A stretch of DNA of 64,000 nucleotides, from positions 62,001 through 126,000 of the forward strand of contig CALZUA010000001.1 of assembly GCA_945829235.1 (NCBI GenBank). The letters are read 5' to 3'. Shown here piece after piece: positions 63,362-64,000 of this stretch. The notes under the pieces were generated by a model. The model saw only the letters and a list, made by a program, of their open reading frames with translations. It was not told the origin of the DNA and made no database searches. Within the stretch, counting starts at the first letter, position 1. Each line of letters opens with the position of its first letter. This DNA comes from an uncultured Clostridia bacterium (GTDB lineage Bacteria > Bacillota > Clostridia > Oscillospirales > Ruminococcaceae). A program made the position numbers and the translations under genes.

Positions 63362-63394
63362 AAAAAATCCGCCTTCTTGCCGAAAGCGGATTTC
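63362..63394 (-). terminator. Terminator of the L7/L12-like lipoprotein gene
   Basis: AATCCGC (63366-63372) pairs with GCGGATT (63386-63392); on the minus strand TTTTTTG follows directly. Confidence 0.85.
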
Positions 63395-63397
63395 AAA

Positions 63398-63724
63398 TTA
63401 TTTGGACGGTGTAAGTTCAATCACAGCGCCGACGTTTTCAAATTTTACCTTGATTTCCTGAGCATCGTCGGTGGATTTTCCCGTTGCGATAACAACCGGA
63501 ACAGACTCGGAAAGATCCTTTGCCTCTTTGAGTCCGAGCTCGGTCAGTTCTCTGATTTCCTTGATAACTTTGATTTTTGAATTGCTGTCAAAGGAAACGA
63601 GCGTAACGTCCCAGCTTTGGATTTCCTGAACCGAGGAACTGCTGTCATCGGGCTTGTTTCCGCAACCCGTGAACGAGATAAGCGCGCCTAAAACTCCGAG
63701 AAAAGCCACTATTTTTTTCAACAT
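63398..63724 (-). CDS. Lipoprotein with a ribosomal L7/L12 C-terminal domain
   Basis: A 108-residue putative lipoprotein. The N terminus LKKIVAFLGVLGALISFTGC is a lipoprotein signal with Cys near residue 21, followed by a Ser/Asp linker (GNKPDDSSSSVQE). The remaining ~70 residues are a clear L7/L12 C-terminal domain: WDVTLVSF, KIKVIKEIRELTELGLKEAK, DDAQEIKVKFENVGAVIEL, aligning without gaps beyond one or two positions to the true RplL end in the same window ([14 protein letters not shown]). The N-terminal dimerisation domain and hinge of L7/L12 are absent. It lies directly behind rplL, so it probably arose by duplication of the rplL 3' end and fusion to a signal sequence. ATG 63724 (GGAG six bases upstream) is chosen; ATG 63736 with GGAGG is the alternative. 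Predicted location: outer face of the membrane. Confidence 0.85.
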   Translation of the reverse strand: MLKKIVAFLGVLGALISFTGCGNKPDDSSSSVQEIQSWDVTLVSFDSNSKIKVIKEIRELTELGLKEAKDLSESVPVVIATGKSTDDAQEIKVKFENVGAVIELTPSK

Positions 63725-63741
63725 ATTTTTCTCCATAACAC

Positions 63742-63770
63742 AAAATCCTCCGCAGAAAAACCGCGGAGGA
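63742..63770 (-). terminator. Terminator of rplL overlapping a ribosome binding site
   Basis: TCCTCCGC (63746-63753) pairs with GCGGAGGA (63763-63770) on the plus strand; on the minus strand the descending arm GCGGAGGA is followed by TTTTGTG. That arm contains GGAGG, a ribosome binding site for the ATG at 63736, so the hairpin both ends rplL transcription and would hide the site in readthrough transcripts. Confidence 0.75.
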
Positions 63771-63790
63771 CTTGTTTTAGTTGAACGAAA

Positions 63791-64000
63791 TTACTTGAGT
63801 TCGATCTTAGCGCCTGCTTCTTCGAGCTTAGCCTTGAGTTCCTCAGCCTCAGCCTTAGCAACGCCTTCCTTGATAGCCTTAGGAGCAGCCTCAACGAGCT
63901 CCTTAGCCTCCTTAAGACCAAGACCGCAGATATCCTTAACAGCCTTGATAACAGCCATCTTAGCGTCACCGAAGGAAGCGAGAACAACGTCAAACTCGGT
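63791..64000 (-). CDS. rplL: Ribosomal protein L7/L12, C-terminal part (5' truncated by window edge)
   Basis: The minus strand is open from the window edge to a TAA at 63791-63793, giving the last 69 residues of L7/L12: [39 protein letters not shown]. This is the stalk domain that recruits translation factors. Codon choice (many GCT, AAG, GTT) is that of a highly expressed gene and differs from neighbours. The N-terminal dimerisation domain lies beyond the window. Confidence 0.95.

Follow-up and report, generated by a model that had tools for sequence, protein, structure and literature searches.

How does the tip domain of the ribosomal stalk come to form the body of a small protein with a lipoprotein signal, encoded directly behind the gene of the stalk protein itself, and what could such a protein do? 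The question arises in a window of 64,000 nucleotides, the whole stretch of DNA analysed here, from the genome of an uncultured Clostridia bacterium. The 108-residue frame (Table 1) is uninterrupted and reads MLKKIVAFLGVLGALISFTGC, GNKPDDSSSSVQEIQ and SWDV...LTPSK in order; its product consists of a lipoprotein signal, Cys21, a Ser/Asp-rich linker and the PF00542 domain. The preliminary description had recognized an L7/L12 C-terminal domain (CTD) by eye and proposed a profile search, which matches residues 39-104 with an E-value of 1.1e-22 and 80.5 bits (cut-off 25.9), far above chance, and the LGLKEAK motif singled out at the time lies at residues 63-69. Against the profile of the full-length bL12 equivalog (TIGR00855) the protein scores 65.3 bits for a cut-off of 84.4, and only profile positions 50-124 are covered. 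The L10-binding and dimerisation N-terminal domain and the hinge are absent in all three orthologues, where the signal, the Cys and a short linker stand instead. A Pfam scan up to an E-value of 10 retrieved PF00542 and a sub-threshold match to PF14793, and nothing else. The structure model has low confidence ahead of the domain (block means of 42-48 for residues 1-30), and the linker is variable, being 10 residues shorter in both orthologues, so that there is no sign of a domain reaching beyond the cell wall.

Table 1. Coordinates, in the window, of the lipoprotein gene and of the features around it
Feature	Position	Strand	Remarks
rplL (bL12), part inside the window	63791..64000	-	whole gene is L004:7792-8172
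Terminator-like hairpin in the rplL/lipoprotein gap	63743..63773	-	L004:7774-7744; terminator scan
Lipoprotein with L7/L12 C-terminal domain, 108 aa	63398..63724	-	stop codon within the coordinates
Signal peptide and lipobox, residues 1-21, Cys21 predicted to be lipidated	63662..63724	-	lipobox pattern in 3/3 orthologues
PF00542 domain, residues 39-104	63413..63610	-	
Second terminator-like hairpin, AAATCCGC...GCGGATTT followed by a T run, 3' of the lipoprotein gene	63362..63393	-	by eye; conserved in the three-way alignment
EamA-like transporter half, 140 aa	62875..63297	-	own promoter-like site

The N terminus shows a charged n-region, a hydrophobic core and a lipobox with its Cys, and satisfies in all three orthologues a PROSITE-type lipoprotein pattern; together with the purifying selection on this segment reported below, the pattern supports the lipoprotein signal predicted at the outset. 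An alternative start codon exists at 63736, and the ATG at 63724 is preferred since the orthologue in genome G018 does not have the former and carries AAGGAG right before the equivalent of the latter. As for the export machinery, LspA is present in the three carriers; an LGT search found two copies of Lgt in the window's genome (G000) and the enzyme in G031, and was negative in G018, a genome 73% complete, the same search being positive in only 9 of 14 control genomes. Compared with the rest of its own genome, the signal comes closest to that of another, apparently unrelated lipoprotein, with 19 identical bp at the lipobox, a stretch too short for the donor of the signal to be named.

The neighbouring rplL gene extends past the window edge (63791-64171) and lies upstream of the lipoprotein gene on the same strand, as had been described; the distance from its stop codon to the lipoprotein ATG is 66 bp and not 60. 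The terminator-like hairpin in this gap was obtained in a scan that listed six such sites in the region for 3.5 expected from shuffles, the 94-nt stretch containing it folds with a z-score of -4.26, and it is kept in all three carriers. A hairpin with a T-rich tail fits within 140 bp 3' of rplL in 35 of 36 genomes (32 of the genus and four others, the exception being G005, with no shuffled baseline for this count), and the hairpin of the carriers is therefore probably the old rplL terminator. The second hairpin, 3' of the lipoprotein gene, was not listed by the terminator scan. A promoter scan returned seven promoter-like sites in the region for 1.7 in shuffles, none of them in the gap behind rplL; on the same strand such sites precede rplJ (one with 12/12 matches) and occur 3' of the lipoprotein gene, including one with 11/12 matches right ahead of the EamA-like gene. 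As the gap holds no promoter-like site, read-through would be the likeliest source of transcript. In all three carriers, rplL is separated from a TauE/SafE-like pair by the lipoprotein gene and the EamA-like gene, the names EamA and TauE/SafE being given from the appearance of the sequences.

Among 43 genomes of the genus, the gene is restricted to the window's genome, to G018 (76% identical) and to G031 (70%). The search for relatives beside rplL suggested earlier thus yielded two orthologues, both in the same position behind rplL. Three of the 43 genomes have no PF00542 match at all, and absence is uncertain in a few drafts with a partial rplL or none. The other 40 genomes contain no second PF00542 match on the same contig within 50 kb of rplL. 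When the 900 bases 3' of rplL were inspected in 26 non-carriers (three longest frames each) and in G032, the TauE/SafE-like pair was found directly after rplL in 7 of the 26, an arrangement without the inserted segment. In a tree from the DNA of rplJ and rplL (36 rows, six of them less than half filled) the carriers form one clade (support 96/96), whose sister G001 (88/91) is without the gene.

Wider searches did not enlarge this distribution. A three-row profile run on 247 family genomes, a sample that did not include G018, produced full-length matches only in G000 and G031 (184 and 192 bits), the next score being 62.5. No lipoprotein occurs among the second PF00542 matches of 394 order genomes (18 multi-match genomes outside the genus checked), of 199 phylum genomes (seven checked besides the window's own) or of 11 further two-match family genomes, a genome with a single match being counted as having rplL only. 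The second matches included a zinc-ribbon protein (G281), N-anchored membrane proteins (G301, G370), a TPR protein (G315), EF-Ts (twice in G029), a UBA-like protein (G732) and rplL pieces (G309, G267, G091), along with EF-Ts and a dehydrogenase-like protein in G019 and G111, named by eye. A candidate relative in G046 (E 4.6e-7 with the whole protein as query) was discarded: the match consists of the signal and a Ser-rich stretch, and the sole PF00542 match of that genome is rplL. The single protein found nothing in genome contigs, and the profile gave 79 loci with the lipoprotein gene only at L109, from an uncultured Clostridia MAG, and at L110, from Oscillospiraceae bacterium RGIG8728 of water deer colon; these are not additional cases, since their proteins are identical to those of G018 and G031. 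The remaining 77 loci were sorted as rplL, 76 of them by a loose N-terminal pattern (the two oddest, L186 and L187, being confirmed on full reading) and L173 being cut at a contig end. A phage or plasmid origin was also considered and rejected: the viral contigs scanned hold no relative, and none of the 61 matching plasmid records aligns with 80% of the query in any one place. Among the best 25 of these 61, the match falls in annotated rplL in 16 and in unannotated sequence in nine, of which one (H10) reads as rplL. Three PHROGs of unknown function match the lipoprotein weakly.

The gene is under purifying selection. The omega values (NG86) of the three orthologue pairs are 0.16, 0.16 and 0.26 for the whole gene, with none of 1000 codon bootstraps reaching 1. 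They are 0.13, 0.13 and 0.17 for the first 24 alignment columns (3, 4 and 1 of 1000 bootstraps at 1 or above) and 0.18, 0.17 and 0.34 for the domain (0, 0 and 3 of 1000). Low omega in both segments indicates that the export signal and the domain have both been kept. Stops and frameshifts are absent at a dS of 0.57-1.16 between orthologues, and the lipoprotein evolves far faster than rplL, which is 96-98% identical in amino acids in the same species. A decayed, frameshifted copy of rplL, one of the outcomes that would have undone the original proposal, is ruled out by the intact frames in three species and by omega below 1.

Where the domain came from is a harder matter. Tandem duplication, on the spot, of the 3' part of the host's own rplL and its fusion to a lipoprotein signal, the origin initially proposed, with fast divergence thereafter, is given here somewhat less than an even chance. 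The two genes adjoin in all three carriers, which is improbable by chance, and a tree forced to unite the lipoproteins with rplL of the genus is not rejected (AU p 0.313, non-ribosomal rows removed), though it is 16.3 log units worse; adding rplL of the family to this clade reduces the deficit to 4.1 log units (p 0.458). These constrained trees were computed with 69 rows, near-duplicate sequences and roughly half the distant ones having been removed, and their bootstrap had not settled. Broken partial duplications of rplL do apparently occur in the order, because three genomes from two other families contain short frames with rplL-3'-like ends some 0.2-2 kb behind rplL (L199 in G072, L200 in G091 and L198 in G336). 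Against the proposal, the domain is only 48% identical in amino acids and 60% in nucleotides to that of the neighbouring rplL in the window's genome (48-57% in amino acids across the carriers), with synonymous sites near saturation, and in a single alignment it is closer to the rplL CTDs of three other Firmicutes (47-53%) than to its own (44%). Moreover, an EamA-like gene arrived in the same segment. Relatives of the latter at an E-value of 1e-15 or better occur in 21 of the 43 genus genomes, and in the 18 non-carriers among these they lie on a contig other than that of rplL (16 genomes) or in a genome without an rplL match (two). As this gene sits on other contigs in other species, the locus was rearranged in a manner that goes beyond mere tandem copying. 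Some of these relatives are tandem halves within one frame of 288-315 aa.

The unconstrained CTD tree, which likewise counts against duplication in place, leads to another origin, rather unlikely in our estimate: the domain would derive from the L12 CTD of a non-ribosomal protein in the genus, MORN-L12 or similar, and would have come to lie behind rplL by rearrangement, the adjacency being secondary. This tree has 110 rows and 70 columns; a third of the distant rows was retained, and the 12 non-ribosomal rows were chosen by reading. It joins the lipoproteins to four MORN-L12 CTDs from the genus (89/77), a grouping in which the program itself flags the meeting of long branches. Compared with the rplL rows shown, the loop has one additional residue in 3/3 lipoproteins and 4/4 MORN-L12 proteins, and 3/3 and 3/4 of them, respectively, have a Glu following VIK or MIK. 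The loop is weak evidence, because rplL genes from other families of the order (L024, L082, L083) are longer-looped too. The rearranged segment fits such a move, but a chance landing beside rplL is improbable and the three PF00542 matches of the window's genome, namely rplL, the lipoprotein and, on another contig, a zinc-ribbon protein, include no MORN-L12 protein.

The L12 CTD has in fact been found in varied company. The zinc-ribbon protein just mentioned has 243 aa (L003:1381-2109, contig C3) and similar genes exist in G016 (L193) and G003 (L194); the MORN-repeat proteins, in four species of the genus, carry the CTD at their end (L089:985-1701, L085:1498-2232, L192:961-1713 and L195:1730-2473). 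In G090, a prolipoprotein diacylglyceryl transferase (L090:367-1722; PF01790, E 3.4e-69) bears a C-terminal L12 CTD, so that a lipoprotein-making enzyme itself contains this domain. In G243, of the same family, it occurs with a cohesin and a type I dockerin (L191:1768-3366 and L204:3765-6557, both on the minus strand); a signal-like start and repeats lie just upstream in another frame, and one exported protein split over two frames, or two genes, may be represented. Ends resembling the L12 CTD, complete or in part, also occur in membrane-spanning proteins (L226, L227, L228, L231, L232, L234, L248, L249) of G546, G613, G837, G709, G657, G825, G301 and G370; the one in G825 is an N-anchored protein of 123 aa with a weak match (21.5 bits). 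A further rplL-3'-like frame lies at a contig end in G091 (L256). The association of the L12 CTD with MORN repeats, zinc ribbon, Lgt, cohesin-dockerin and membrane proteins suggests that it is a general interaction module, and the matches listed in the open-licence PMC literature had little on the roles of these combinations.

A ribosome stalk-tip domain thus appears to have been reused as a small lipid-anchored protein on the outward side of the cell membrane in a few closely related gut bacteria. With slightly better than even confidence, we regard the gene as encoding a real, selected lipoprotein, an exported and lipid-anchored L12-type binding module gained once in the genus and expressed at a low level by read-through. 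The analysis shows the domain with its predicted fold, the lipobox pattern, the selection, the carrier clade, the gene order and the hairpin; export, lipidation, read-through and binding are what we infer, and a non-ribosomal job is a reasonable reading of the sequence. The protein would be exported by Sec, lipidated at Cys21 by Lgt and cleaved by LspA, leaving on the outward side of the membrane a mature form of 88 residues (78 in the orthologues), scarcely more than one L12-type CTD. Having no N-terminal domain for L10 binding and dimerisation, it would be expected to exist as a monomer and not to sit on the ribosome. Its most likely job would be that of a tethered protein-protein interaction module, binding another exported or membrane protein by the helix-hairpin face of the L12/ClpS type; the predicted extracytoplasmic location, the missing N-terminal domain and the selection on the signal make this the best reading. 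In the simplest history, the ancestor of three species of the genus would have acquired once a segment, comprising the lipoprotein and the EamA-like gene, between rplL and the TauE/SafE-like pair. Expression would probably be low, by read-through of the rplL terminator, and the dose of the lipoprotein thereby tied to the ribosomal operon. Against all this, relatives manage without the gene (40 of the 43 genomes), the terminator ahead of it could mean very little product, and the tree also allows an older gain followed by losses.

Two readings in which the domain keeps its ribosomal partners deserve mention. EF-Tu is a moonlighting surface protein. All three orthologues retain the residues that correspond to K65, K70 and K84 of E. 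coli, and two retain those corresponding to R73, G79 and K81, for which G031 has M, E and A; R73 and G79 belong to the factor-binding residues of the E. coli protein. K65, K70, K81 and K84 of E. coli L12 are named as factor-binding residues, and K65 and K70 as important for the binding of EF-Tu (PMC10602876). A lipoprotein with an intact GTPase-factor face, acting as a cytosolic membrane tether should export fail or as a surface partner of moonlighting EF-Tu, would agree with the three invariant lysines; from residue comparison it seems improbable, given the three altered positions in G031 and the selection on the signal, which makes a cytosolic protein less likely. A bolder version, in which the lipid-anchored protein keeps this face outside, holds EF-Tu or a similar GTPase at the envelope and has its dose tied to the ribosomal operon, is more improbable still; if it were true, part of the ribosomal stalk would have become a receptor for translation factors at the cell surface. 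Least probable of all is a non-functional chance fusion, carried along unexpressed, which the terminator-like hairpin, the lack of a promoter-like site in the scan and the restriction to three species would accommodate but which fits poorly with omega well below 1 in all three pairs and with frames free of stops and frameshifts at such dS.

Under the favoured reading of a tethered binding module, a core ribosomal domain has been drawn into the extracytoplasmic lipoprotein pool and kept there by selection, beside a gene of its parent type, in a recruitment that looks like one datable step. It is a small and cleanly bounded case in which to ask what the L12 fold binds without the ribosome and how a ribosomal fold gains a second life.

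Compared with bL12, the lipoprotein is devoid of the N-terminal L10-binding domain and of the Ala-rich hinge, falls below NCBI's L12 cut-off, and possesses a lipoprotein signal, a C-terminal tail PSK and one extra loop residue relative to the neighbouring rplL. It shares with the MORN-L12 and zinc-ribbon-L12 proteins of its genus a non-ribosomal PF00542 CTD, but those are multi-domain proteins in which no lipoprotein signal was seen, and none is encoded on the rplL contig within 50 kb of that gene. The likeness to the N-degron adaptor ClpS would be one of fold only, as judged from the model (9-16% identity); there is no match to the ClpS family (Pfam up to an E-value of 10), and the lipoprotein is predicted to be exported. 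Reuse of the L12/ClpS domain off the ribosome is already in print, as an insertion in vWA components of conflict systems (PMC7159879) and as an 85-aa PF00542 protein on an Acinetobacter plasmid (PMC7885321). The CTD likewise serves away from the ribosome there; the proteins are not described as lipoproteins, whereas here the domain makes up almost the whole of the predicted exported protein. A lipoprotein with an L12 CTD is not named among the matches listed in the open-licence PMC literature, searched partly with narrow terms.
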